A stretch of DNA of 64,000 bases from Bryobacterales bacterium (GTDB lineage Bacteria; Acidobacteriota; Terriglobia; Bryobacterales; Bryobacteraceae): contig PMTR01000080.1 in the NCBI GenBank assembly GCA_003167255.1, positions 114,591 to 178,590 of the forward strand. The letters are read 5' to 3'. Below, piece by piece: positions 33,150 through 63,685 of the stretch. The notes beneath the pieces were generated by a model, which was given only the letters and a program-made list of their open reading frames with translations, was not told the DNA's origin and searched no databases. Numbering within the stretch: the stretch's first letter is position 1; every line of letters starts with the position of its first letter. The position numbers and the translations under genes were made by a program.

Positions 33150-34258
33150 TTTGCTCCAGTCGCCGCGCCGATCACGGAAGTGAAGGCCGGTTTGGTTTTT
33201 CCCTCGCGATCGAAGAGCAACGGATAGTTAGTGCGGCCGCGGATGGGGAAACCGTTCAACCAGGAGTCGCCATCGGTTACGCCCCAGAAAGTGACGCGGG
33301 TGATGGAGGCGCGGTATTTGACGAAGATTTTGAAGAGCTCGGCGTAGCGTTGGGCGAGCGCCTGCTGGACCGCGTCGGGAAGGCCGGCGGTGTACGGGTT
33401 GGAGCCCGAGCCGCCGGCGGAGGTGGCGGAGACGTCGGCCGAATTTCCGGGGGCATTGCGCGGCAGCACGTCGACATCGAGCTCGGTGATGTTCACCTTG
33501 ATGCCGAGCGCGGCGAAGGCCTCGATGGTGTCGGCCTGCTGTCGGGCGGTGGGCCAATCCATCTTGTCGTGGCCTTGCAGTCCGATGGCCGTGATGGGGA
33601 CGCCCTGGGCTTTGAGCTTTTTGATGAGTTCGACGGCGCCCTTGCGCTTGGCCTCGTTTTCGAGCGAGTAGTCGTTGTAATAGAGCTCGGCTTTGGGGTC
33701 GGCTTCATGGGCGAACTGAAAGGCCTTGGCGATGAAGTCGTCGCCGATGATGTTCAGCCATGGCGATTTGCGCAGCGTGCCGTCTTCGTTGAGGGCTTCG
33801 TTGACTACGTCCCAGCCGGCGATGCGGCCCTTGTAGCGGCCCACCACGGTCCGGATGTGATCGTGCATTCGCTCCAACAAGGCATCGCGGGTGAGCGGAG
33901 CGCCCTTGTCGTCCTGGAAGACCCAGCGGGGCACCTGGCTGTGCCAGACCAGGCAGTGACCGATGATGAACATCTTGTTCTTTTCGCCGAAAGCCACGTA
34001 GTGGTCGGCGGGATCGAAGTTGTAGCCATCGAGCCGGGGGTGGATGGATTCCCACTTGAGCGCGTTTTCCGGGCTAATGGTGTTGAACTGCGCGGCGATG
34101 ATGGCATCGCCGCGGGCGTCCTTCTCCTCGAACTGCGACTGATTGATAGCCGCGCCAATGCGGAAGATTCCCTGGAAGGCGTCTTTCAAAGTGGCCGGTT
34201 GCGCGTGGGACACGCCAGCCAGCAGCAGGCCTAAGATTGCGACGGATTTCACGGACAT
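33146..34258 (-). CDS. GH10 endo-1,4-beta-xylanase
   Basis: 370 aa with a signal peptide (SVAILGLLLAGVSHAQ). GH10 signatures: HCLVWHSQVPRW (101-112), acid/base E154 in GWDVVNEALNEDG, nucleophile E259 in VNITELDVDVLP, and WGVTDGDSWLNGFP near the end. Single catalytic domain, no carbohydrate-binding module. Cuts the xylan backbone. Directly upstream of and coupled to the GH115 gene; the 162-nt gap on its 5' side contains the 56-nt palindromic repeat, so it may have its own promoter or be read through from the GH3/GPH genes. Confidence 0.96.
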   Translation of the reverse strand: MSVKSVAILGLLLAGVSHAQPATLKDAFQGIFRIGAAINQSQFEEKDARGDAIIAAQFNTISPENALKWESIHPRLDGYNFDPADHYVAFGEKNKMFIIGHCLVWHSQVPRWVFQDDKGAPLTRDALLERMHDHIRTVVGRYKGRIAGWDVVNEALNEDGTLRKSPWLNIIGDDFIAKAFQFAHEADPKAELYYNDYSLENEAKRKGAVELIKKLKAQGVPITAIGLQGHDKMDWPTARQQADTIEAFAALGIKVNITELDVDVLPRNAPGNSADVSATSAGGSGSNPYTAGLPDAVQQALAQRYAELFKIFVKYRASITRVTFWGVTDGDSWLNGFPIRGRTNYPLLFDREGKTKPAFTSVIGAATGAK

Positions 34259-39348: not shown

Positions 39349-40074
39349 TCACTCGTCGCTGCCGGCGAACAAACATCCTTGTAAACCTGTTGCTCGTGGT
39401 GGGCTCGGCGCAAGCTTTGGCCGGCCGCGGGGGAAGACGCGCAGCCTCCGGCCCGCTTGTCTTTCCAGTTGGCCCACGAATTCCCGCGAGCCGAGCGGCG
39501 AGCCGGTTTGCGTCGCCTGCCGAACCGCGGTCGATTCATCATCGGGCATTTCAGCAAGGAGCAGATCCTTCCATTCGCCGTAGTCCCAATGCCCACAATA
39601 GGCCGCCCAGTCGCAGTCTACACCGGGTCGCGGGCGTGTTCCAAGGTATGGGCGCGCGCGCTCGACCAGGGCCAATCCCATGGCTTGGCGGCTAGGCCGG
39701 CCGGGATTCAGGTCGATGTAGCGCAAGGCGGTGATGAGATGCGACTCGTCCAATGGGCAGGAGAAGAAGCGGTTCTGCCAGAGGTGTCCGGTGCGGCCAT
39801 CCACGCGATTGAACCCCAGAGCGTACTCGGAGTGCACGCGTTTCAGGGCGCGGGCGAGCGAATCCTCGCGCTCGGGCACGACTACGAGATGGATATGGTT
39901 GGTCATCAGGCAGTAGCCCAGGAGGCGTTCGCCGGAGCGCGCGGCGTGATGGCTGAGAAGGTCCAGGTAGAGACGGCGATGGTCCGGCGAGTGGAAGACG
40001 GGTTGGCGGTCGTTGCCACGCTGGGTGACATGATGGGCAACGCCCGGAAAAACTACGCGGGGACGGCGGGGCAC
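39349..40074 (-). CDS. REP-associated tyrosine transposase (RAYT, Y1/HUH family)
   Basis: 241 aa starting at GTG (PRRPRVVFPGVAHHVTQRGN). HUH motif in MTNHIHLVVVPERED, then YALGFNRVDGRTGHLWQNRF and ALRYIDLNPGRP, all typical of RAYT (TnpA_REP) proteins. These single-stranded-DNA nucleases are linked to the spread of REP palindromes. A GGGGA-aatacg-TCCCC element lies 35 nt upstream of its start. No insertion-sequence ends are visible, as usual for domesticated RAYTs. Confidence 0.93.
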   Translation of the reverse strand: MPRRPRVVFPGVAHHVTQRGNDRQPVFHSPDHRRLYLDLLSHHAARSGERLLGYCLMTNHIHLVVVPEREDSLARALKRVHSEYALGFNRVDGRTGHLWQNRFFSCPLDESHLITALRYIDLNPGRPSRQAMGLALVERARPYLGTRPRPGVDCDWAAYCGHWDYGEWKDLLLAEMPDDESTAVRQATQTGSPLGSREFVGQLERQAGRRLRVFPRGRPKLAPSPPRATGLQGCLFAGSDE

Positions 40075-52095: not shown

Positions 52096-54696
52096 CTACT
52101 TCTTGTCGGGTTGGATCTCCACATAGTCGAGCGGCGCCAATTCGTTGCCGCCGGGCTTGCCTTCGATGCGGATTTCGTCGCCCGGCCGCAATGCCACACC
52201 CGCAATCACGCGCCGTGTGGAGGCCCCGGCGTCCATGCGGCGCGACGGCAGGCGCAGATCGGCGGACCACTCGTCGATCAATTGTTTTCCCATAAACACG
52301 CGGTACTGAGAAACGCCGGTGGGCAAGTCGAAGTATTCCACGTTCAAGGTGTACCAGCCGGCTTCGCCCGCGTATTTCATGCTGGCGCTGCACGTGGACC
52401 CGGCCGGGCAGGTGACGATCTTGCCGCCGGAGGCATCTTCTTCAGGCGTCGTCGGCGGCGTAAACCCGCCCCGCCCGGGCCCCGCGGCGGCAGGCGGCTG
52501 AGCAGGCGCAGGCGGCGCTTCTCCCGGTGGTGGAGGGCCGAAGGAGCGTACGGTGTACCCCTGCAATTCCATAGCTTCGGCTTCGAAGCGCCCGGGGTAA
52601 TGTCCCACGCGCCCCTTCGCGTCAGCGATCTTCGAGGCCTTCTGGAACCACGTGTTTACGGCGTCGCGCCACACGATTGCCTGGCCGGCCTGGTATTGAA
52701 GCTGCGCCAGCACCTGGTGGTAGCGCTGTTCGTCCACTAGCCCCGCCAGGCTTTTCCACTGCCGAACATAGGCAGCCACGGCATCCGCGCCCTCGTAGTG
52801 GGAATCGTAAATGTACTGCACCACGGTCTTGCCGGAGTGCAGTTTGTAGGTATAGGGAACGTGGTGCAGGAAGAGCAACAGATCGTCTGGGCAGGTGGCC
52901 AGCGATTCATAGACCTTGGCGACCTCCGGCCGATACTGCCCGATAAACCCCGTGCCGGTGTCCACGGTGCGGTCCATGCCGACGCCGGTTTCGTCGGCGC
53001 GATGCCACTGGCCCCAGCCGTTGCGCTCGGAGGCCTCCACGTTGACGCTATAGTGATCGCCCACGATGTCGGTGAGGGTCTGCAAGCCCAGCGGTCCGGT
53101 GTAGTTTTCGTAGGTGCGCCAGGTGCCGAGTTGCATGGCGGAGATGGTATCGACCACTTTGGGGTCGAGCCCGAAAGTGAGTTTGCTCCATTCGTCAATG
53201 ATGCGCTTGGAGCTCAGATCGGGGTTCCAGGCCAGGCGGCCGAAGCCGTACAGGTTGGCCTGGGAAAGCTGGCTGCCGAACCAGTTGTCATCCAGCCCGA
53301 CGTTGGATACGCCCACGAAGCCGCCTGACGGGCGGTCGAACGTCTTGCCGGCGACCAGGGCTTTCACCGGAGTGGGCGCCGTGCCCTTGGCGTGCATGTC
53401 GAAATCCAGCGTTTCTTTCCAATAGGGGACCAGGAAGACGTTGTGTTTGGCTTGGCCGAAGTATTCCTGAGTGATCTGCAGCTCGACAACCTGGTTGGTC
53501 TTCTCCAGCGCGCCGAAAAGCGGCGAGGCCGGTTCGCGCACCTGGAAATCGATGGGGCCGTTCTTGATCTGGATGAAGGCGTTGTCGTCGAACTTGCCGT
53601 CGAGCGAGTGGAAGTTATCCCAGGCGGCGCGCCCGCGGTCGTTCTTCAGGTTGCGCCAGTCCATGTGGTTGTCGTACACGAACCCACGGTAGAACAGCAG
53701 GCCGCCGTGCGGTTTCAGCGCCTGTGCCACCACGTTGGCGGCGTCGGCGTGGGTGCGGCCATAGGCGGAAGGGCCCACCCGGCCTTCCGAATCGGTCTTC
53801 ATGACGAACCCGGCCAGGTCGGGCACCGCGCGATAGATGTCGTCGGCGCGGGCCTTCCACCACTCGGCGACTGTCGGGTCGAGCGGATCGAACGTGCTCA
53901 GACCGCCCATTCTCTGGGGGCTGCCGAAGTCCACGGAAATCGCCACCCGCACGCCCCAGGGGCGGAGCGCGTCGGCGATGCGCGCGATCTGCGGAGCCAG
54001 TTCCGGAGTGAGGATCTTCAGGTCTGCGTTGACATTGTTGATGGAGCAGCCGTTGATGCCGAGCGAGGCCAGGAGCCGGCCGTAGTCGCTGACGCGGCCG
54101 AGATCGTCGCGGACCTTGCCGCCGTCCCAGAAGATGGAGCGCCCGCCGTAGCCGCGCTCGATGGTGCCGGGCAGATTGTCCCAGTGGTTCACCCAACGGA
54201 CGGACGCATAGGGCGTTTCGCGCTGGTCGAGCGAGGCGATAGTCTCGCCCATGGCGATCTTGCGCAGCAGGGCGAAGGCGCCATAGAGCAGACCGCGGTC
54301 ATTGGAGGCGGTGACGATGGTGTAACGAAGCGGGCCGTCGTCGGCGGATTTCAGCCAGAAGGCGTCGGGGGCCAGGCGGACGTCGGGAAGCAGGCGCGGC
54401 GCCGCGCGGCGGATCTCCTCGACGGTTCCGATGAGAATGGCGCTCTCACGTGGGATGTCGGATTCGGCGCGCAGCGTGCGGCCGAGCATGCCCTTCACTC
54501 CGCGGATGAGCTCGGCGCAAGCGCTCGACGCGACGGTGGATTGGTCAAGCACCGAGACGACGGCCGGCACGGCCTGACGAACCTGATCGGGAGCGGCGCC
54601 TTGGAGCGGCGCGTATCGCAGCCAGGCATCGTAGCCGGTTTCGGCGTACAGCGCGGCGGCGGCGACAAGAAGCGAAAGAAGACGAAGTTTCGACAT
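52096..54696 (-). CDS. aguA: GH67 alpha-glucuronidase
   Basis: 866 aa from ATG 54696 (AGGAG about 7 nt upstream). Signal peptide (LRLLSLLVAAAALYAETGYDAW). GH67 signatures throughout: DAFWLKSADDGPLRYTIVTAS, GLLYGAFALLRKI, WVNHWDNLPGTIERGYGGRS, FWDGG, GINGCSINNVNAD, FVMKTDSEGRVGPSAYGRTHADAAN, QIKNGPIDFQVREPASPLFG, LQITQEYFGQ, and YTYKLHSGKTVVQYIYD. A Pro/Gly-rich linker and a beta-rich end (about 755-866) are extra to the core. Cleaves (4-O-methyl)glucuronate from the non-reducing end of xylo-oligosaccharides. Follows the SDR gene by 38 nt. Confidence 0.95.
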   Translation of the reverse strand: MSKLRLLSLLVAAAALYAETGYDAWLRYAPLQGAAPDQVRQAVPAVVSVLDQSTVASSACAELIRGVKGMLGRTLRAESDIPRESAILIGTVEEIRRAAPRLLPDVRLAPDAFWLKSADDGPLRYTIVTASNDRGLLYGAFALLRKIAMGETIASLDQRETPYASVRWVNHWDNLPGTIERGYGGRSIFWDGGKVRDDLGRVSDYGRLLASLGINGCSINNVNADLKILTPELAPQIARIADALRPWGVRVAISVDFGSPQRMGGLSTFDPLDPTVAEWWKARADDIYRAVPDLAGFVMKTDSEGRVGPSAYGRTHADAANVVAQALKPHGGLLFYRGFVYDNHMDWRNLKNDRGRAAWDNFHSLDGKFDDNAFIQIKNGPIDFQVREPASPLFGALEKTNQVVELQITQEYFGQAKHNVFLVPYWKETLDFDMHAKGTAPTPVKALVAGKTFDRPSGGFVGVSNVGLDDNWFGSQLSQANLYGFGRLAWNPDLSSKRIIDEWSKLTFGLDPKVVDTISAMQLGTWRTYENYTGPLGLQTLTDIVGDHYSVNVEASERNGWGQWHRADETGVGMDRTVDTGTGFIGQYRPEVAKVYESLATCPDDLLLFLHHVPYTYKLHSGKTVVQYIYDSHYEGADAVAAYVRQWKSLAGLVDEQRYHQVLAQLQYQAGQAIVWRDAVNTWFQKASKIADAKGRVGHYPGRFEAEAMELQGYTVRSFGPPPPGEAPPAPAQPPAAAGPGRGGFTPPTTPEEDASGGKIVTCPAGSTCSASMKYAGEAGWYTLNVEYFDLPTGVSQYRVFMGKQLIDEWSADLRLPSRRMDAGASTRRVIAGVALRPGDEIRIEGKPGGNELAPLDYVEIQPDKK

Positions 54697-54734
54697 GACA
54701 AATCTCCTGCTCACCGGCAATAAGATTGCCGGCG

Positions 54735-55511
54735 CTACGAATTCACGCCGGAGGCCAGGTAGCCTCCGTCGACGGCGATGCACTGGCCGGTGAGAAAGCT
54801 GACGGCATCGGAAGAGAGCAGAACCGCGAGCCCCACCAACTCTTCGGGTGACCCGAAGCGCTTCATGGGCGTGCGCATGAGGATTTCCTGACCGCGGGCG
54901 GTTCCCATCACCAGGTTTCGATTCAGTTCCGTGGGGAAGACGCCGGGCGCGATGGCGTTGACGACGATACCGTATTCGGCCCACTCACAGGCGAGGCTAC
55001 GGGTGAGCGACAGGATGGCGGTTTTCGCGGCGCAGTAGGCAGCCACCTGGTGAAACGCCAGGAACGAACCGAGCGACGCAATGTTGATGATTCGGCCGTG
55101 GCCGCTCGACGCCAGCAGCCCATGGAACGACTGGCAGGCGCGCAGGACGCTCATCAAGTGGGTATCCATGAGCGCCGAGAAGCGGAACTCGTCCACGCTG
55201 ACGGTGGGCTCTTTGAAGGTGTAGCCGGCGGCATTGATCAGAATATCGACGTGGCCCAGGCGGGCGACGACGGCTTCGCGCAGAGCGTTGATGGACTCGC
55301 GGTTGCGGGCGTCGGCTCTGCAGCGCACTGTCTGGCGGCCGAGGGCTTCGATCTCGTCGGCGGCCGATTCGACTTCTTTCTCACGCCGGCCGGTGGCCAC
55401 GACGTGCGCACCGTGCCGGGCGAGTCCTACAGCCAGGGCCCGGCCGATGCCGGAGGTGCCGCCGATGACGACGGCGACGCGGTCTTCAATGCTGAGGTCA
55501 TTTGCGAACAT
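54735..55511 (-). CDS. Classical SDR oxidoreductase
   Basis: 258 aa. NAD(P)-binding GGTSGIGRALA (about 17-27), NAAG (about 93-96), catalytic S of NIASLGSF, YCAAK (Y and K spaced by 3), and C-terminal FLTGQCIAVDGGYLASG. Resembles gluconate 5-dehydrogenase/KduD-type enzymes and SDR-type fructuronate reductases; not the shorter-motif uronate dehydrogenase type. First gene of an SDR-GH67 operon, so a uronate or ketouronate is the likely substrate. Inference only. Confidence 0.9.
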   Translation of the reverse strand: MFANDLSIEDRVAVVIGGTSGIGRALAVGLARHGAHVVATGRREKEVESAADEIEALGRQTVRCRADARNRESINALREAVVARLGHVDILINAAGYTFKEPTVSVDEFRFSALMDTHLMSVLRACQSFHGLLASSGHGRIINIASLGSFLAFHQVAAYCAAKTAILSLTRSLACEWAEYGIVVNAIAPGVFPTELNRNLVMGTARGQEILMRTPMKRFGSPEELVGLAVLLSSDAVSFLTGQCIAVDGGYLASGVNS

Positions 55512-55552
55512 GCTGATGGTTCCGTTTTAGCAAGATCCCGGGAAAACCAAAT

Positions 55553-55823
55553 TGAGCCGCCGATAAACACAGATGAACGCAGATGGGCTATAGCGGCTCG
55601 CAAAATACAGTGACGAAAAGTGCCGGCTTGTGGGGCAGGTTGGCAACCTGCGGCGGGTTGGTAACCCGCCTGCCGGCATTTGCAAATGGCCGCCCGGCGC
55701 CGGTTGGCAACCGGCGCGCAGGATACCATCCTGCCCCACAAAACCCACTGCGCGCGACCGTATTTCGCGAGTCTCAATATTTGTTTTCAATCTGCATTTA
55801 TCGGCGTTCATCGGCGGCTAACC
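55553..55823. repeat. 115-nt palindromic repeat copy B nested in a larger inverted repeat
   Basis: Core copy B is 55628-55743, with shared flank to 55776 (ending TTCGCGAGTCTCA as in copy C). Outside it, GCCGCCGATAAACACAGATG (from 55556) and CTGCATTTATCGGCGTTCAT...CGGCGGCT (to about 55821) form looser inverted arms. This fills the 327-nt gap between the SDR and the 109-aa protein genes; no gene seen. Confidence 0.8.
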
Positions 55824-55838
55824 TTTCTCATCAACCTG

Positions 55839-56168
55839 CTAAAGGCTGATGAACAGGGCGCCATCCTCCACGCTCAGCTCGATCGCGGCCGCGGCGGCGG
55901 CTTCATCCAGGGCGGCGCGCAGCATGGCGACGGGGTCCGGGCCTTTCTCGAGCCGGCGCATCAGCCCTTCGCCCTTTTTGGCGCCGGCCGAAAGGACGAT
56001 CTTCAAGCCGCGGCGTTTGCATTTCACAACCGTGCCGTCCTCCAGTTTGGCGTTCATCGGTTTGATGTAGGCATCGACGTAGTGGACGCCGATGCCGGAC
56101 TTGTCGGCGGCGAATTGTGGGAGCTTTTCGGGAGCCGCGGGATTGACGTCGCAGAGTTTGGTTTTCAT
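55839..56168 (-). CDS. Unknown 109-aa protein coupled to homocysteine methyltransferase
   Basis: Not recognised. Starts MKTKLCDVNPAAPEKLPQFA; the middle (GTVVKCKRRGLKIVLSAGAKKGEG) is basic and beta-like; then a helix (PVAMLRAALDEAAAAAAIEL) and a short beta end. Two cysteines only, no signal peptide. Its ATG overlaps the methyltransferase stop (ATGA), so it is the last, translationally coupled gene of the corrinoid operon. An accessory, chaperone or substrate-binding role there is possible; nothing in the sequence proves one. Confidence 0.75.
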   Translation of the reverse strand: MKTKLCDVNPAAPEKLPQFAADKSGIGVHYVDAYIKPMNAKLEDGTVVKCKRRGLKIVLSAGAKKGEGLMRRLEKGPDPVAMLRAALDEAAAAAAIELSVEDGALFISL

Positions 56169-57085
56169 AGGGAATCCGAATATTGATCGATGGCCTGGCG
56201 CACCGCACGGATGTGTTCTGGAGTGCTGCCACAGCAGGCGCCGATGAGATTGGCGCCGCTCTGGAGCAGCGGCACGACGCCCACAACCATCTGTTCCGGT
56301 GTTTCGTCGTAGACCACTTTCATGTTGATGAGCTTGGGCTGGCCGGCGTTGGGTTGGACCATCACGGGCAGGCCGGTGACCTTCTTATAGCGCTCGACCG
56401 CATGGCGGGCGCGCTGCATGTCCATTCCGGTGCCGCAGTTCAGGGCGACCATGTGGGCGCCGTGCTCTTCCATGAAGACGGCGGCGCGCTCGGGATCGAT
56501 GCCCATCATGGTGCGGAAAGTGGATCCGTCCAGCGTGACGTCGTAGGCCATGGAGCCGATGATGGTGGCGGCGCCGGCTTCGCGGGCGGCGTGGATTCCG
56601 AGCAGCAGCTCTTCGAGAGAAGTCTGGGTCTCAATGATGATGGCGTCGGCTCCGGCATCCACCAGGGCAGCGGCCTGCTCGCGGAAAGCGTCGCGCACCT
56701 GGGCTTCGGTGAAATCGCCGTAGGGTTCGAGGAGGCCGCCGAAGGGACCGATATCGCCGATGACGAATCCATGGCGGCCGTTGAAGGCGCGGCGGGCGAT
56801 TTCCACTCCGGCGCGGTTGATTTCCGCGACATGGTCAGCGTGGGAATGGCGGTTCAACATGATGCGCGAACCGCCGAAGGTGTTGGTGAGGATGCAATCC
56901 GAGCCCGCTTCGGCATAGCGGCGCTGAATGGCCAGGACGCGTTCAGGGTGCGTGAGATTCCAGGCCTCGCCGCAATTGCCCTGCTCCAGGCCGGCCAGCA
57001 TTAATTGCGTGCCCATGGCGCCATCGCCCAGCAGCGGACGTTCGCGGACGGCATCGTGCAGTGGTTTCCTGGTGGAGGGTTTCAT
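56165..57085 (-). CDS. Homocysteine S-methyltransferase (BHMT/MetH N-domain type)
   Basis: 306 aa from ATG 57085 (57100 gives 311). LLGDGAMGTQLMLAGLEQG near the N-terminus, TNTFGGSRIML, and the zinc-thiolate cysteines in VALNCGTGMDM and GACCGST (about 217, 284, 285). This is the homocysteine-binding module of cobalamin-dependent methionine synthase as a separate protein. In this operon it should accept the methyl group from the corrinoid protein and make methionine. Separated from the upstream gene by a 56-nt repeat. Confidence 0.92.
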   Translation of the reverse strand: MKPSTRKPLHDAVRERPLLGDGAMGTQLMLAGLEQGNCGEAWNLTHPERVLAIQRRYAEAGSDCILTNTFGGSRIMLNRHSHADHVAEINRAGVEIARRAFNGRHGFVIGDIGPFGGLLEPYGDFTEAQVRDAFREQAAALVDAGADAIIIETQTSLEELLLGIHAAREAGAATIIGSMAYDVTLDGSTFRTMMGIDPERAAVFMEEHGAHMVALNCGTGMDMQRARHAVERYKKVTGLPVMVQPNAGQPKLINMKVVYDETPEQMVVGVVPLLQSGANLIGACCGSTPEHIRAVRQAIDQYSDSL

Positions 57086-57108
57086 TAATACATCTCGCAT
57101 TCCGCAAA

Positions 57109-57164
57109 GACCGCTCCCTCACGGTCGCGGCTCGCATGCGAGCCGCGCGCGTTAGCAAGCGGTC
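57109..57164. repeat. 56-nt palindromic repeat, copy 2
   Basis: Same element as 34321-34376 with two base changes, again with the perfect palindrome CGGCTCGCATGCGAGCCG and GACCGC/GCGGTC ends. The preceding bases (CGCATT..GCA.A) are also shared. Sits inside the corrinoid operon, 8 nt beyond the more distal possible methyltransferase start. Confidence 0.85.
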
Positions 57165-57181
57165 CTGCCATACGTGAATGT

Positions 57182-58405
57182 CTAGCGGTTGTCGGCATGG
57201 GTTTCGGGATGGTGCAGCGCGTAGTGAATAGTTTCGAGGACCAGTCCCCACTTGTGTTCCCGGCTGGCGGCTTCGCAATAGCAGCCGGAGGCGGCTTCGG
57301 AGCGATGCCAGCCGAGCACCTCAGCAAGGGGACGGCCCGCGAGGGGCTTCTCGCGGCCGATGGCGGCCATCAGGCCGGAGGCGTCGGTGATGTACTGGCA
57401 CATGGAGGCGTGGCCGGTATCGCCGGGAGCCGGAGTACAGCTCTGGCCGCGGATGGGATAGCCATCCTGGCGGGTCCCCAGATCCACGTCGTAATGGAAC
57501 GCGAGCGGGCGCCCCATGTTGGTGCAGGTGGTGCCGTCATAGCGGAAGCGCGCGTGGAGCGTGCCGTCTTCGCGGGTTTCGAGCACCAGCCGTTCGGCGG
57601 CCCATCGTCTGAGCGCTTTGACATTGACCGAATAGGCGGCGGTAGTCTGCGGCTCGGGCGATTCCTGTTCGAGGCGCGGGTGGGCGCGCAGGTAGGGAGT
57701 GCGGCGGTATAGGCAGTTGACGAGCGAGCACTGCTGGCACGGGACCAGGTCCGCGAGGCGCGCCACGCGGTCCACGTGGCGGGTGATTCCAAAAACGGCC
57801 AACTGCGATTTCTTGGGACGCAGAGCGCCGGAATCGAGCGCCTCCAGCGCGCCGGGGAGCGCGACGGCGCCCTCGCGCCGGATGAGGCGCAGCAGACGGC
57901 CCTGCTCGGCGACGTCCCATTGGGAATAGCCGGGGCTGTGGTGGGGCAGCACGGCCATGGCGTGAGCGTCCGCCCAGGCGCACAAACCGGCGCCGGCCAT
58001 GGCGATCAAATGCTCCACCACGCAAGAGCCAAACATTTCGAGGAAGAAATATTCGTCGGGCTTGTCGTCGCGCCAAAGCCGCTGGGCCTCTTCCTCGGCT
58101 TCGGGGCCCGCGCCGGCCGCGGCCAGGAACACCGTATGAGCCTCGGCCTGCTGCAACGCGGTTCGAAGCCGGCTGCTGTTGAAGGCGACGCCATCGATCT
58201 CGACCTCGCCATCCGCTATGTTGAGGCTGGCGGCGCAACGCGCATAGATCCAGGGGCGCCCGTGGCTCCGGTACCAATCGCGCGCCCAATCGGCCAGCTC
58301 GAGCGAGCGCTCGCCGGGCACGGCATCGCGCGGGTAACCGAGCAGGCGGTGATACTCGGCTGGGGCCACCTCGACGGTGGGAAAGGATTGAACGAATTCG
58401 ATCAT
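57182..58405 (-). CDS. Cys-rich protein with MetH-activation-like segment
   Basis: 407 aa. Middle part FLEMFGSCVVEHLIAMAG and MAVLPHHSPGYSQWDVAEQGRLLRLI resemble the AdoMet-binding activation domain of methionine synthase (SPGY motif). The C-terminal half has a cysteine cluster C223-x2-C226-x4-C231 and further C294, C323, C336, C375, C377, suggesting an iron-sulfur or metal centre. Overlaps the reactivator gene by 4 nt. It probably helps reactivate oxidised corrinoid, possibly using AdoMet and electrons; this assignment is inferred from motif and context. Confidence 0.75.
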   Translation of the reverse strand: MIEFVQSFPTVEVAPAEYHRLLGYPRDAVPGERSLELADWARDWYRSHGRPWIYARCAASLNIADGEVEIDGVAFNSSRLRTALQQAEAHTVFLAAAGAGPEAEEEAQRLWRDDKPDEYFFLEMFGSCVVEHLIAMAGAGLCAWADAHAMAVLPHHSPGYSQWDVAEQGRLLRLIRREGAVALPGALEALDSGALRPKKSQLAVFGITRHVDRVARLADLVPCQQCSLVNCLYRRTPYLRAHPRLEQESPEPQTTAAYSVNVKALRRWAAERLVLETREDGTLHARFRYDGTTCTNMGRPLAFHYDVDLGTRQDGYPIRGQSCTPAPGDTGHASMCQYITDASGLMAAIGREKPLAGRPLAEVLGWHRSEAASGCYCEAASREHKWGLVLETIHYALHHPETHADNR

Positions 58406-60045
58406 CCGGCCACCTGGTGCGCGGGCTCCATGGGTTTGAAGAGGCAGCCCTCGACGAAGAAATCGAAGAAACGCGGGTGAGTCTCCAGGCGGCAGTGCTC
58501 CACCTGACGGACGAGTTGTTCGAGCTCGCGGCGCTTGGATTGCGAGAGCAGCGCGAGCGAAGCGCCTTCAATGGCGGCGTTGCCGGCCTGCACTACGCGG
58601 TCTTCCGGGATGGTGGGGATGAGGCCGATGCGCGCGGCGGCGGGTACGTTCATGTGCCGGCCGAAGCCACCGGCCAGGTAAAAGACCTCGATCTGGTTGA
58701 AGTCGATTCCGTAATTGGCGAAGACCACTTCGAGGCCGGCGGAATTGGCGCCCTTGGCCTGCGCCAGCTCATTGACGTCGCTTTCCAGGAAGAAGACGGA
58801 GCCTTGCGGGTCGAGCGCGATGCGGTGGGGGCCCTCTTCGAAGCGGCCGCGTTCGTTCATCTGGCCGGTGCGCATCAACTCGCTCATCAGCGCCACCAGG
58901 CCGGAACCGCAGATGCCCTGGGGCGGGCCGCCGCCGATGACCTCGAGTTGGAAACTGCCGTCGGCGGCGATGCGAACGTCTTCGATGGCGCCATCGAGCG
59001 CGGGCATGCCGCAGGCGATAGCTCCGCCTTCGAAGGCCGGACCGGCGGGGCAAGAGGCCGCGAGAATGCGCCGGCGATTGCCTACGACCAGCTCGGTGTT
59101 GGTGCCGATGTCCATAATGGCGACGAGGCGCTCTTCGTGCGCCAGGCCGGCGGCCAGCATGCAGGCCGCGGCGTCGGCCCCGACGTGGCCGCTGATCACC
59201 GGTGCGCCCCATACGCGAGCCCTGGGATGGATGGGCAGCAGCGAGCGCCGGCCGGTTTCGGTGAGGCTGGTGGAGGCGCGGCGGCCCTCCGCCATCTGCA
59301 ATTCGGTGATGGACTGGTACGGGCTCTGGCCGATGGAGTGGACGCTCTGGCGGAAAAAGAGGTCGCGCATGGTGGAGTTGCCCACCACCACCATTTCGTA
59401 AATGGATTTGGGATCGACCGGAAACTCTTCGATGGCGTGGCTGAGGTAACCGGCCAGCGTGCGACGCAAGAGCTTGCCAGGATGGAGCGAATCGTAGTGA
59501 ATGCGCGCCATGACGTCGGAGCCGGCGAAGCGTTGCGGGTTCTCAAAAGACGTGCCGGCCACCAGGTCACCGGTCTCGAGGTTGAACAGGCGCAGCACGA
59601 CGGTGGTAGTGCCGAGGTCCATGGCGAGTCCGTGAATCGGGCCGGTGGAGCGATCGACTTCCTGACCATCGATGCAGATGGCGTCGCCGCGCCGGGTGAC
59701 GGCGGGATCGGGGGTGAGGCCGCGCAGAGTTTCGGGCAGGCCGCCGGCGGAGAGATCGATGCGCATTTGGCCGCGGCGCATGGTGTGGCAGTGGATCGCG
59801 CCGGCATCGGCAGAGACCACGGTGCGGCAGGAGAGGCGGAAGCGGCCGTCGAGATGTTTTTCCTCCGGCGTGCGCGGCGAGAGAGACTCCGCGCCTTCGA
59901 CCACTTCCACCACGCATTCCTTGCACTTGCCCTGCTTGTGGCAGGAGGTAGGCACGCGCACGCCGAGCGATTCGGCGCAGTCGAAGATAGTCGAGCCGAA
60001 GGCGGCGCTGATGGATTGCCCGTTGATGGTGAGTGTGGCCGGCAT
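58402..60045 (-). CDS. ASKHA-domain ferredoxin, corrinoid reductive activator (RACE/RamA-like)
   Basis: 547 aa. N-terminal plant-type 2Fe-2S domain: C35-x5-C41-x2-C44-x28-C73 (SCHKQGKCKECVVEV; FRLSCRTVV). A linker leads to the DUF4445 actin-like ATPase part: AMDLGTTTVVLRLFNLETG, MDIGTNTELVVGN, CPAGPAFEGGAIACGMPALD and FYLAGGFGRHMN. Such proteins reduce inactive Co(II) corrinoid to Co(I) with ATP hydrolysis. Overlaps the next gene by 4 nt and follows the PF13769 gene by 12 nt. Confidence 0.93.
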   Translation of the reverse strand: MPATLTINGQSISAAFGSTIFDCAESLGVRVPTSCHKQGKCKECVVEVVEGAESLSPRTPEEKHLDGRFRLSCRTVVSADAGAIHCHTMRRGQMRIDLSAGGLPETLRGLTPDPAVTRRGDAICIDGQEVDRSTGPIHGLAMDLGTTTVVLRLFNLETGDLVAGTSFENPQRFAGSDVMARIHYDSLHPGKLLRRTLAGYLSHAIEEFPVDPKSIYEMVVVGNSTMRDLFFRQSVHSIGQSPYQSITELQMAEGRRASTSLTETGRRSLLPIHPRARVWGAPVISGHVGADAAACMLAAGLAHEERLVAIMDIGTNTELVVGNRRRILAASCPAGPAFEGGAIACGMPALDGAIEDVRIAADGSFQLEVIGGGPPQGICGSGLVALMSELMRTGQMNERGRFEEGPHRIALDPQGSVFFLESDVNELAQAKGANSAGLEVVFANYGIDFNQIEVFYLAGGFGRHMNVPAAARIGLIPTIPEDRVVQAGNAAIEGASLALLSQSKRRELEQLVRQVEHCRLETHPRFFDFFVEGCLFKPMEPAHQVAG

Positions 60046-60057
60046 CGGAGCTTTAGC

Positions 60058-60315
60058 CTACCAGGCGGCCTGGGACTGAAGTTCGGCGGCGACGGCTTCG
60101 GCCACTTCGCTGGCCGTCCCGGGGCGTTCCTGGTCGTCGCTCCACTGCCACTGGGCGAGATAGTCGTCGGACTGCTGGAGCCCGCGCTTGGCGGCCAGTT
60201 GGTCGATGCGCTCCACGAACTTCGGGGGCATCGGAACGGTGACTTCGTCCTGGTCGTCCTCAGCCTTGACTTGAGACGGAACTTCCTGCCAATAGAGAAT
60301 CTTGTAGGTTGCCAT
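60058..60315 (-). CDS. PF13769 'virulence factor' family protein
   Basis: 85 aa: MATYKILYWQEVPSQVKAEDD, then VPMPPKFVERIDQLAAKRGL and DDYLAQWQW. This matches the small family labelled virulence factor, which as far as I know is often found beside corrinoid/homocysteine methyltransferase genes in alphaproteobacteria; no virulence role is implied. The upstream corrinoid gene runs 56 nt into it in another frame. Likely an accessory subunit of the methyl-transfer complex. Confidence 0.8.
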   Translation of the reverse strand: MATYKILYWQEVPSQVKAEDDQDEVTVPMPPKFVERIDQLAAKRGLQQSDDYLAQWQWSDDQERPGTASEVAEAVAAELQSQAAW

Positions 60316-60958
60316 CGTGATGTATGCCGGCCATCAGCCGAAGGAAAAGGTCCACGGCGGCGGAGGCGTTTTGGCCGTAGCCATCGGCGCCGATTTCGTC
60401 GGCGAACATCTGGCTGATGGGGGCTCCGCCGACGGCCATCTTGATTTGGGTGAGGCCGGCGGCCTGGAAACCATCGATCACCGTTTTCATGTAGGTCATG
60501 GTGGTGGTCAGCAGGGCGCTCATCCCAATGATATCGGGTTTGCACTTTTCGGCGGCGGCCATGAATTTGTCGACGCTCTGGTCCACGCCGATATCATGCA
60601 CTTCGAAGCCGGCGCCTTCGGCCATCATGCAGACCAGGTTCTTGCCGATGTCGTGCAGGTCGCCGCGAACGGTGCCCATCAGCAGGGTGCCAACGCGCTG
60701 GACGCCCTCGCGGGCGCTGAGGAGCGGCTTGAGCACTGCCATTCCGGCCTTCATGGCGCGCGCCGCGATCAGCACTTCGGGGACGTAGAGAATGTTGTGC
60801 TTGAAATCTTCCCCTACCACGCTCATGCCGGCGATCAGGCCCTCGTTTAGAATCTGCTGAGCGGATTGGCCTTCGGCCAGCGCGTCCCTGGTCATCTGCT
60901 CGACTTCCTTGGCCTTACCCTCGTACAGGCACTGATTCATCAGTGCGTAATCAACCAT
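60260..60958 (-). CDS. Free-standing corrinoid (B12-binding) methyl-carrier protein
   Basis: 232 aa from ATG 60958. Helical cap (about 5-85: CLYEGKAKEVEQMTRDALAEG, VPEVLIAARAMKAGM) and Rossmann B12-binding domain with the base-off motif D100-L-H102-D-I-G105 (RGDLHDIGKNLV), GMSALLTTTM and VGGAPIS. H102 should be the lower cobalt ligand. About 20 residues extend past the usual end and overlap the next gene by 56 nt. Overlaps the UroD-type gene by 8 nt. Confidence 0.95.
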   Translation of the reverse strand: MVDYALMNQCLYEGKAKEVEQMTRDALAEGQSAQQILNEGLIAGMSVVGEDFKHNILYVPEVLIAARAMKAGMAVLKPLLSAREGVQRVGTLLMGTVRGDLHDIGKNLVCMMAEGAGFEVHDIGVDQSVDKFMAAAEKCKPDIIGMSALLTTTMTYMKTVIDGFQAAGLTQIKMAVGGAPISQMFADEIGADGYGQNASAAVDLFLRLMAGIHHDGNLQDSLLAGSSVSSQG

Positions 60959-62024
60959 GGCGGACCCCTTGACCGGCGAGACGGCCCGCGTTGAATTCTT
61001 CGAGCGCGCGCTGCATGGCGACGATGTTCTGGCGCGGCATTCCGGGGCTGGTGCCGCCGCCCACGGAGAGAATGATGCCTTCGCCGCCGGAGCCTTCGAG
61101 CACATCGAGGGTGGCTGCGCGGACCTCTTCGGGTGTGCCGCGGACGCCGATTTCGAGCGGGTTCACGTTACCCATAAGACACATGCGATGGCCCACGCGC
61201 TGCTTCACTTCGCGAATGTCCTTCTGCTTGCCCCAGTTCAGCACGTTGAATCCGGCGTCGGGAATGTGGTCCAGGCAGGCGTCCACTTCGGCGTCGTTAT
61301 GGTAGATCTTGATCCAGTCCGCGGGAAAGGCGTCGCAGATGCGCTTGAGATAGGGGTGCGCGAACTCCATGTAGTGCTCTTCGTTGATGAAGCCCACGAT
61401 GTCGTCGAGGATAAAGATGCCCTCGACGGTCGAGCCCATGGCTTTGTGCTGGGCCTTCAACCAATCGATGACGACGCGCGTGCAGAGGTCGATCAGGCGG
61501 TGAGCGCCCGCGGGATTTTCGACCAGGTCGATCATGAAATGGGTGGTGCCGCGCACGAAGCCGGCGGTGCAGAGAGGCCCGCGCGAAGTCACCATGGGCA
61601 GGATGTAGCCATGGTCGAGGATACGTTGGCGCTGCATCTTAATGCGATGCAGGGTGAGGGCGGCGAAGGCGTCGTACTCCACCTCGTACTCCGGGAACTG
61701 ATCGATGTCTTCGAGACGATAGAGGGTGTGGTATTCGCTGGGAGTATTATCCTGCCAGAACTTGATTTTCGCGCCCAGGACCGATGGCTCGGCGGCCATT
61801 CCGTACTCCATCCACCAGGAGGGGACGAAGATGATGTCGGGGAACTCGCGCATTATGTCGAGATTGGCCTGGAACCAGACTTCGGGGTCGAGGTAATAGT
61901 CCAGGTGCTGTATGCCCAGATAGCCGGGCATCCACGGGCTATCGATAATGAGGGCCATCGGAATCCGCTCGAGTTTCTCGAGACGCGCGGCTCGTTTAAA
62001 AGTTTCCCACTGGTGCGGCAGCAT
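60951..62024 (-). CDS. UroD-superfamily methyltransferase (corrinoid methyltransferase partner)
   Basis: 357 aa from ATG 62024, 8 nt after the enolase-superfamily stop. Uroporphyrinogen-decarboxylase fold as in MtaA/MtbA and related methyltransferases: FVPSWWMEYG, ILPMVTSRGPLCTAGFVRG, ILDDIVGFINEEHYMEFAHPYLKRI, IKIYHNDAEVDACLDHI, GFNVLNWGKQ, MGNVNPL. Where MtaA-type enzymes have the zinc motif HxC, this has H242-N-D244, so the metal site differs. It should move a methyl group from an unknown donor to the corrinoid protein encoded next to it. Confidence 0.9.
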   Translation of the reverse strand: MLPHQWETFKRAARLEKLERIPMALIIDSPWMPGYLGIQHLDYYLDPEVWFQANLDIMREFPDIIFVPSWWMEYGMAAEPSVLGAKIKFWQDNTPSEYHTLYRLEDIDQFPEYEVEYDAFAALTLHRIKMQRQRILDHGYILPMVTSRGPLCTAGFVRGTTHFMIDLVENPAGAHRLIDLCTRVVIDWLKAQHKAMGSTVEGIFILDDIVGFINEEHYMEFAHPYLKRICDAFPADWIKIYHNDAEVDACLDHIPDAGFNVLNWGKQKDIREVKQRVGHRMCLMGNVNPLEIGVRGTPEEVRAATLDVLEGSGGEGIILSVGGGTSPGMPRQNIVAMQRALEEFNAGRLAGQGVRHG

Positions 62025-62032
62025 GACTTTTC

Positions 62033-63277
62033 TCAATAAGGAATCGCAACGGGGCGTCCATCGTTGGGGTCGGCCCACCGGTCATTCGGAATGATGGCAG
62101 TCCAGCCAGGCCGGCCGGGATCCTGGTCATAGGGATACCCGCCGAGACGCTGGTAGAGCTCGTGATACTCTCTGAGTTTTTCGCGATTGAGCCGGACGCC
62201 CAACCCAGGGCCTTCGGGGACGCGAATGCAACCGCTTTCATAACGAAGCAAGCCACCTTCAATGATATCGTCCCTGAGGTGGTGATAGTGGGCGTCGGCG
62301 GCGAAAGAAAGATTGGGAATCACGGCGCCCAGGTGCAGCATGGTGGCAAGTTGAATGCCGAGCTCGCCGGAGGAATGCACGGCCACGCCGATCTGGAAAG
62401 TTTCGCAGACCGCGGCGGCTTTCACACAGGCGCGGATGCCGCCCCAAAACGTGGTGTCGAGCAGGATGACGTCGACCGCGGGATCGAGCGCATTGGCGGC
62501 CAACTGCTCGAAGTTGACCACCACGGTGTTGGTGGCGAGCGGCACGCGCACCATCTGGCGGGTGCGGCGCATGCCGTTCAAGCCAAAGACCGGATCTTCC
62601 AGATAGTCGTTGCGCAGGCCCTCGATGGCCTGGCCGAAGCGGATGGCCTGCTCGGTGGACCATACGCCGTTGGGGTCGAAGCGCACGGAATCGTTGGGGA
62701 ATGTTTCGGCCAATGCGCGGTAGGCCTCAAGTTCGTAATCCGGGGGGAAAACGCCGGCCTTCATTTTGTGGGTGGTGAAGCCGAAGCGGCGTTTCAGGCA
62801 ATCGGCGTTGGCCAGCACCTGGTCGATAGTGCGGACCTCTCCATCGCCCGTGCGCGGGTCGGGGTAGCGGAAAAAGCAGTAGGCGGCGAAGGGAACGCGG
62901 TCGCGCAGGCGGCCGCCGAGAATTTCCGAAACCGGCACACCCCAAGCTTGCCCGAGAATGTCCAGGCAGGCGAATTCCAGCGCGGCCAGCACTTGCGTGC
63001 GGTTGTTGTAGAGCGAAGCGGTGGGATTGGCGATGAGGAAGCGCATTTCTTCGAGGCGCGCGGGGTCGTGGCCCACCAGATACTGCTTCATGGCGCGGAA
63101 AACTGCCTCGGCCGATTCACCGCCGCCGCCCATTTCGCCGAGCCCCACCAGACCGTTGTCAGTCTCGATTTCGACGACCGTTCGGACGAAGCGGCCCCAG
63201 TGACAACCGTTGGCATGGCGCAGAGGCGCCTCCAGCGGCACGGTGACCGTGGTGGCTCGGATGTCCACGATCTGCAT
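62033..63277 (-). CDS. Enolase-superfamily acid-sugar dehydratase, glucarate-dehydratase-like
   Basis: 414 aa. Capping domain with [12 protein letters not shown], then the barrel: K171-M-K173 (THKMKAG), metal ligands D201 (RFDPNGVW), E227 (YLEDPVFG) and N250 ([14 protein letters not shown]), and the D274/H301 pair ([13 protein letters not shown]). The KxK, Asn ligand and His-Asp pair match the glucarate dehydratase subgroup rather than mandelate racemase. Substrate probably a C6 sugar acid. First gene of the corrinoid operon, which is unusual for this enzyme class. Confidence 0.9.
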
Positions 63278-63436
63278 TTGGTTTTATGATACAACAATTT
63301 CCTGGTTAAGCAGGTCCCGAGGGCGCAATTTCGGCAGGCGGGCTTGACCGAAGGCCTACGCAGGCAACCTTGCGGGCGTCTGGCCGGCACCGGGAGACGC
63401 TCAGATAATTTGAGCATCAAACTAATCAGTGCAGGC

Positions 63437-63584
63437 TTGTGGGGCAGGTTGGCAACCTGCGGCGGGTTGGTAACCCGCCTGCCGACGTTTGCAAATGGCC
63501 GCTCGGCGCCGGTTCCAACCGGCGCGCAGGATTCCATCCTGCCCCACAAAACCCGCCGAGTGTAACCGTACTTCGCGAGTCTCA
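63437..63584. repeat. 115-nt palindromic repeat, copy C
   Basis: Core 63437-63551 matches copy B except for a few bases; the shared right flank ends TTCGCGAGTCTCA at 63584. It takes up the middle of the 408-nt gap between the enolase-superfamily gene and the peroxiredoxin gene; the rest of the gap should hold the corrinoid operon promoter, but no clear -35/-10 pair was resolved. Confidence 0.85.
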
Positions 63585-63685
63585 CTAATCTTCAAAGGGT
63601 TTTCCGCAATCGGGGGTGTTGTCTGGAATGATCCGGCGCGCGGGGCCGCAACGATCGCGGCCCTGCGCCTGGACGAGCGGAGCGC

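Follow-up and report, generated by a model that had tools for sequence, protein, structure and literature searches.

Aromatic O-demethylases such as MtvABC of Moorella, Odm/Vdm of Acetobacterium and Mto of Methermicoccus are described as combining a first methyltransferase (MT1), a small corrinoid carrier, a RACo/Ram activase and a separate second methyltransferase (MT2) (PMC8630106). OdmB and VdmB belong to the URO-D superfamily, and according to the same account S-methyltransferases carry His-Cys-Cys, whereas O-methyltransferases have exchanged one or both of the cysteines (PMC10418091). Modular demethylation through a corrinoid also has a precedent among aerobes, MtgBCD (PMC12478193). Here we describe a stretch of 64,000 nucleotides (the window) from a Bryobacterales bacterium (contig PMTR01000080.1, positions 114,591 to 178,590), where one operon encodes an MT1 candidate of the URO-D superfamily (UroD), a carrier with the DxHxxG motif and an ATP-dependent activase (RACo/Ram), and where genes for two alpha-glucuronidases, of families GH67 and GH115, are also present. 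With a probability of about 0.7, judged from its genes, the operon encodes a corrinoid O-demethylase for 4-O-methylglucuronate from glucuronoxylan, or for its next intermediates.

In hardwood xylan, many of the glucuronate side chains bear a 4-O-methyl ether, and (methyl)glucuronate is the sugar on which the enzymes of both GH67 and GH115 act. C4 of glucuronate corresponds to C3 of mannonate, from which UxuA (mannonate dehydratase) removes the hydroxyl, and to C4 of glucarate, from which glucarate dehydratase removes it, and the methyl ether blocks the leaving group in both routes. Judged by titles and the first lines of abstracts, the open-licence literature yielded no enzyme that removes the 4-O-methyl group of glucuronate, and a paper on a model degrader, in the part available, terms the released acid glucuronic acid (PMC4194401).

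To find relatives, genome contigs were scanned with a nine-row UroD alignment, which gave at least 589 pattern matches and at least 561 relatives. The best 80 loci were kept and are near relatives (54-91% identity), not a random draw, from Acidobacteriota, Planctomycetota, Verrucomicrobiota, Ignavibacteriota, Bacteroidota, Gemmatimonadota, KSB1 and unplaced genomes. With the window proteins as tblastn queries (1e-10), the 80 stretches were found to carry the corrinoid protein (48), RACo (44), the PF13769 protein (40), the 407-residue protein (39), the homocysteine methyltransferase (35), the 109-residue protein (34) and the SDR oxidoreductase (14). GH67 was found on 16 stretches, against 0.21 expected from its density in the genomes (Poisson 6e-25), GH115 on 11, and one or both on 23. 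An enolase-type dehydratase was present on 11 stretches, eight of the copies being close (86-89% identity), and seven of these eight loci carry GH67. Any of GH67, GH115, UxuA or the close dehydratase was seen on 30 stretches, and GH67 or GH115 on 12 of the 29 stretches that reach 20 kb or more. An earlier note on the window, which had proposed corrinoid O-demethylation of 4-O-methylglucuronate, had set linkage to GH67/GH115 in other genomes as a test beforehand, and such linkage was observed in seven phyla (Acidobacteriota, Planctomycetota, Bacteroidota, Gemmatimonadota, Ignavibacteriota, KSB1 and Verrucomicrobiota). On a tree of 75 of the 80 UroD rows, the window and three distant rows, made by a quick method and with many weak forks, the linked rows are scattered, with at least 20 changes of state.

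The association extends to whole genomes. GH67 was found in 38 of the 50 UroD genomes searched (50 of the 80; about 258 Mb), with 44 matches, pieces included. The first co-occurrence sample comprised 396 genomes of the window's phylum, with UroD accepted at E values up to 1e-60. UroD was present in 15 of them (three close, 12 at 34-37% identity) and GH67 in 36, and GH67 was found in 12/15 genomes with UroD versus 24/381 without (Fisher 2e-11). The presence of RACo (70/396) served as control for a corrinoid-methyltransferase lifestyle, and among the RACo genomes GH67 was found in 11/14 with UroD versus 1/56 without. The demethylation proposal therefore passed the comparative test, GH67 co-occurring with UroD, unlike in other activase genomes. 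Eight of the 12 genomes with both UroD and GH67 belong to one family (f29), and the independent events are therefore fewer; within the 14 RACo genomes of this family GH67 was observed in 8/9 with UroD and in 1/5 without. An Opitutaceae locus led to G433, and 200 genomes of its family made up the second sample, in which seven genomes with only a distant UroD (33-37%) were counted as lacking it. A close UroD was found in 34 genomes (33 at E below 1e-150, one partial), GH67 in 25/34 with versus 31/166 without it, and GH115 in 26/34 versus 51/166. On the same contig and within 15 kb of UroD, start to start, GH67 was present in 5/34, GH115 in 12/34 and either in 14/34. UroD is thus linked to alpha-glucuronidases beyond chance, with lineage effects partly removed.

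The AlphaFold model of UroD (mean predicted local distance difference test score 93.6) has as its closest solved structure the methylcobalamin:coenzyme M methyltransferase 4ay7 (Z 35.1, root-mean-square deviation (rmsd) 2.6 over 327 residues), followed by uroporphyrinogen decarboxylases with Z up to 33.7. In an alignment of 38 of the 80 loci, the window and six distant rows, Glu72, Asp206, Asp207, His241, Asp243 and Gly322 are kept in 45/45 rows (residue numbers count from one codon after the ATG at 62024). All 45 rows thus have His241-x-Asp243 where S-methyltransferases carry His-x-Cys, and Gly at the presumed place of the third Cys. By residue numbering, the 4ay7 ligands His237, Cys239 and Cys316 would presumably match His241, Asp243 and approximately Gly322. 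The predicted metal site of UroD accordingly lacks the His-Cys-Cys that marks S-methyltransferases. All NCBIfam models stayed below their cut-offs for UroD, and its closest named relative is from a metagenome-assembled genome of Candidatus Sulfopaludibacter (91% identity).

Several observations weigh against 4-O-methylglucuronate as the substrate. Neither GH67 nor GH115 was found at 57/80 loci, and 50/80 carry none of GH67, GH115, UxuA and the close dehydratase, although many stretches are short; the stronger claim that the operon always stands beside GH67 was rejected on these counts. The corrinoid-protein gene is missing from 32/80 stretches. GH67 was absent from 12 of the 50 UroD genomes searched, and both alpha-glucuronidases from 5/34 UroD genomes of the second sample. 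Among nine longer UroD stretches of the window's phylum (L024-L032) only L027 carries GH67; L024 shares seven genes with the operon, yet GH67 is absent from its 15 kb. L027 belongs to G156, a single-contig genome with UroD and no RACo match, and since this match is lacking its corrinoid would need another activator. The window's genome gave no UxaC match, and its seven matches to KdgD, which was sought as a test of the glucarate route, all stayed below the cut-off. Because relatives group by lineage, the Fisher and Poisson values overstate independence, and a xylan-degrading lifestyle was controlled for in part only. Cleavage of an alkyl methyl ether by Co(I) is also chemically harder than that of an aryl ether.

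The genes concerned are collected in Table 1. GH67 and GH115 are both present and the SDR gene adjoins GH67, as the earlier note had stated. Behind the dehydratase named in that note, the corrinoid operon encodes UroD, the corrinoid carrier, RACo and the homocysteine methyltransferase, and it also contains the PF13769, 407-residue and 109-residue genes, which the note does not name.

Table 1. Genes of the window discussed in the text, with coordinates on the window.
Feature	Position	Strand	Remarks
GH67 alpha-glucuronidase, apparently exported	52096-54696	-	three Pfam GH67 domains (467, 311 and 83 bits)
SDR oxidoreductase	54735-55511	-	38 nt upstream of GH67, forms a unit with it
109-residue conserved protein	55839-56168	-	no Pfam family
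Homocysteine S-methyltransferase domain protein, proposed methyl-corrinoid:homocysteine methyltransferase (MT2)	56165-57085	-	PF02574
407-residue protein, proposed second corrinoid reactivation protein	57182-58405	-	no Pfam family
RACo-type corrinoid reductive activase with 2Fe-2S domain	58402-60045	-	PF14574, PF17651, Fer2
Small PF13769 ("Virulence factor" family) protein	60058-60315	-	Pfam
Corrinoid (methylcobamide) carrier protein	60260-60958	-	PF02310, PF02607; DxHxxG motif is DLHDIG
UroD, URO-D superfamily methyltransferase, proposed methyl-ether:corrinoid methyltransferase (MT1)	60951-62024	-	PF01208, 143 bits
Acid-sugar dehydratase, enolase superfamily (MR_MLE, glucarate dehydratase subgroup)	62033-63277	-	heads the corrinoid operon
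GH115 alpha-glucuronidase	30207-33149	-	523 bits; about 19 kb outside 52096-63277
GH10 xylanase	33146-34258	-	in the GH115 cluster

The corrinoid operon comprises eight minus-strand genes (55839-63277), several of which overlap or are separated by a few bases. Seven of them, all except the dehydratase, are found in the same order in L024 (51-85% identity), which argues that the arrangement is not due to chance; L025 has UroD and no further window homologue on its 7.5 kb. The corrinoid operon and the SDR-GH67 unit probably form two transcripts, as the 327 nt between them hold a dispersed repeat. Two copies of this repeat, of about 150 bp and in the same orientation (55619-55779 and 63428-63587), bracket the whole operon, and it gave 62 matches genome-wide, some being the same site counted on both strands. 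By inspection, the N-terminus of the window GH67 resembles a signal peptide. The GH115 cluster at 30-38 kb also holds the GH10 gene, an MFS transporter and GH3, and an IS200-like transposase (39349-40074) lies between it and the GH67 region. No Rfam match at gathering scores was found within the window.

In five loci from Planctomycetota, Ignavibacteriota and Verrucomicrobiota (L039, L040, L057, L058 and L059) UroD is 80-86% identical to that of the window. This identity across phyla suggests horizontal transfer of the UroD cluster.

The open reading frames neighbouring UroD were clustered, and Pfam was run on representatives of some clusters. They include UxuA, SDR, MFS, a PfkB kinase, GH43, an IlvD/Edd dehydratase, an FAA hydrolase, MTHFR and a pterin-binding methyltransferase. 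An alpha-L-fucosidase, an arabinofuranosidase and Gfo/Idh also occur near UroD in some loci, and these, like the five genomes of the second sample without either alpha-glucuronidase, would fit a demethylase that acts on some other O-methylated sugar or sugar acid, derived from the polysaccharides of plants or algae, to which glucuronoxylan would be a companion substrate. This is unlikely, however, as the tested markers that stand out are GH67 and GH115, the enzymes acting on (methyl)glucuronate. The same neighbours bear on the idea that the methyl donor is a different methylated plant compound that comes free along with xylan, for instance ferulate, vanillate or syringate. Xylan degraders do meet methoxylated aromatics, the loci without a linked marker would be compatible with them, and the URO-D O-demethylases known from the literature use such compounds (PMC8630106, PMC10418091). 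On the other hand, the recurrent neighbours are GH67, GH115, GH43, UxuA, PfkB and the IlvD/Edd dehydratase, and no aromatic-degradation family was found among the cluster representatives put to Pfam, which cover part of the clusters, so that an aromatic substrate appears rather improbable.

Returning to 4-O-methylglucuronate, two kinds of dehydratase are found beside UroD. The earlier note had placed a glucarate-type dehydratase at the head of the corrinoid operon, and position and subgroup are correct. The best curated family of the protein is indeed glucarate dehydratase, and it keeps the catalytic-type residues KxK, D, E, N, D and H, but its score is 160 bits versus a cut-off of 828.7; its identity as glucarate dehydratase (GlucD) was therefore rejected, and "glucarate type" is, at the sequence level, valid as a subgroup label and not as an activity. 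Assignment of a function to the SDR failed as well, the nearest curated families shown (gluconate 5-dehydrogenase, KduD and mannonate oxidoreductase) all being below cut-off. UxuA occurs in 10/80 loci, in eight of them directly upstream of UroD on the same strand (Pfam was run on two of these), and it never shares a stretch with the close enolase-type dehydratase, as would be expected if the two served the same step. The enolase-type dehydratase is no fixed part of the system (close copy in 8/80), so that glucarate is no more than a possible intermediate. The order dehydratase-SDR-GH67 recurs in L035, L036 and L103, and in G156 a distant UroD (34-36% identity) stands beside GH67 together with MFS, UxuA-like and SDR genes, in the order MFS-UroD-UxuA-SDR. 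In the window's genome UxuA is represented by one frame, on another contig. UroD copies of like identity to that of the window adjoin either dehydratase (L034 86%, L059 81%; range 81-87%), and because of this the shared precursor, 4-O-methylglucuronate itself, would be the likeliest and most economical substrate. Uronate dehydrogenase is reported to accept 4-O-methylglucuronate (PMC7071571), which makes an oxidative route possible.

An IlvD/Edd-type dehydratase cluster was also observed near UroD in L067, L075, L079 and L083, with FAA-hydrolase genes in L079 and L083; the Pfam identification of both rests on the pair in L079. An oxidative pentose route next to xylan genes is possible in these four loci.

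The methyl group sits on the leaving oxygen in both glucuronate routes, and a dehydratase adjoins UroD in several loci. The dehydratase might accordingly expel methanol from the 4-O-methylated acid, and UroD would then load the corrinoid with the methyl group of this methanol. However, MtaB, the methyltransferase known for methanol:corrinoid transfer, lies outside the URO-D superfamily, many operons have no adjacent dehydratase, and the O-demethylase MtoB is reported to be inactive with methanol (PMC8630106), all of which makes a methanol step quite improbable.

The remaining operon proteins concern reactivation and the methyl acceptor. Compared by sequence with solved structures, the 407-residue protein gave one weak match, no better than chance (E 0.12), and a profile search gave none; its likeness to the activation (AdoMet-binding) domain of MetH emerged only from fold comparison (residues 1-208; 1j6r, Z 20.7, rmsd 2.1 over 194). 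Its C-terminal part is Cys-rich and weakly matches a chain of the Rnf complex (Z 6.2). Because of the predicted MetH-like fold it is probably a second, stand-alone corrinoid reactivation protein beside RACo. The PF02574 protein keeps Cys217, Cys284 and Cys285, the pattern of the MetH zinc site. Homocysteine, put forward as acceptor in the earlier note, is on account of this protein also proposed here for the window; in other phyla MTHFR-like and pterin-binding methyltransferase genes stand with UroD, and for this reason folate is perhaps the acceptor there. Since the window operon has no gene for a folate-binding subunit and a MetH-like frame of 1185 residues lies elsewhere in the genome, it is plausible that the organism obtains methionine from demethylation, with another supply besides. 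As side observations, the small PF13769 protein regularly accompanies the corrinoid methyltransferase in these operons, and the family name, "Virulence factor", looks misleading; the 109-residue gene often adjoins the homocysteine methyltransferase or the 407-residue gene in the loci of relatives.

That the cluster is a housekeeping split methionine synthase or a methylthio/selenide salvage cluster (of the mlp gene cluster (MGC) type) unrelated to xylan, which its modular corrinoid, activase and homocysteine-methyltransferase parts resemble (PMC12478193, PMC10418091), is very improbable in view of the separate MetH-like frame, the missing folate-binding subunit, the co-occurrence of UroD with GH67, and a UroD that lacks the Cys ligands present in most MGC proteins.

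For demethylation of 4-O-methylglucuronate we infer substrate, acceptor and chemistry as follows from the gene content, linkage and predicted fold reported above. GH67/GH115 would set 4-O-methyl-D-glucuronate free from glucuronoxylan, and RACo together with the MetH-activation-like protein would bring the corrinoid carrier to Co(I). UroD would bind the sugar acid, the metal at the His-x-Asp site would activate the ether oxygen, and the methyl group would pass to Co(I), leaving glucuronate. The PF02574 protein would then transfer the methyl group to homocysteine to give methionine; in other phyla the pterin-binding methyltransferase and MTHFR would take it to and through folate. Finally, the freed acid would undergo further processing, and the enolase-type enzyme in the window, or UxuA in other loci, would dehydrate it at the C4 hydroxyl, which is then no longer blocked.

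On balance we think that bacteria of at least seven phyla move the methyl group of hardwood 4-O-methylglucuronate into methionine or the folate C1 pool before dehydration of the acid. If so, wood xylan would be a source of methyl groups, vitamin B12 would be tied to hemicellulose breakdown, a missing step in the degradation of a highly abundant polymer would be supplied, and the use of B12 in xylan degraders of several phyla would be suggested. It would also be the first sugar substrate known to us for corrinoid ether cleavage, and the genes for a direct assay of methylglucuronate demethylation are now named.

Among known systems, Geobacillus-type glucuronate utilisation likewise has GH67 and uronate genes in one locus, but differs in that the available part of its description contains no demethylation step (PMC4194401). 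Type 1 mlp gene clusters share a URO-D protein, a corrinoid protein and an activase in one operon, but are described as almost invariably His-Cys-Cys, with at least two URO-D proteins and sulfur/selenium genes, and from obligate anaerobes (PMC10418091); the window operon, with a single URO-D gene and no His-Cys-Cys, is not of this type. MtgBCDE and the split methionine synthase of marine bacteria are similar in that these aerobes transfer methyl groups through a modular corrinoid system which connects demethylation with folate and homocysteine, but the donor module of MtgBCDE is pfam06253 and not URO-D, and its substrate a quaternary amine, glycine betaine (PMC12478193). The aromatic O-demethylases, to whose MtvB, OdmB and MtoB the window UroD is likened by parts and published descriptions rather than by sequence, take the methyl group from an oxygen ether (PMC8630106), as is predicted here. 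In contrast to them, the predicted donor in the window system is the alkyl ether of a sugar acid, the system is linked to GH67/GH115/UxuA and has a homocysteine methyltransferase as MT2, and the operon adds the MetH-activation-like, PF13769 and 109-residue proteins. Judged by its genes, the window system would nevertheless work like the aromatic O-demethylases, and it has their parts.

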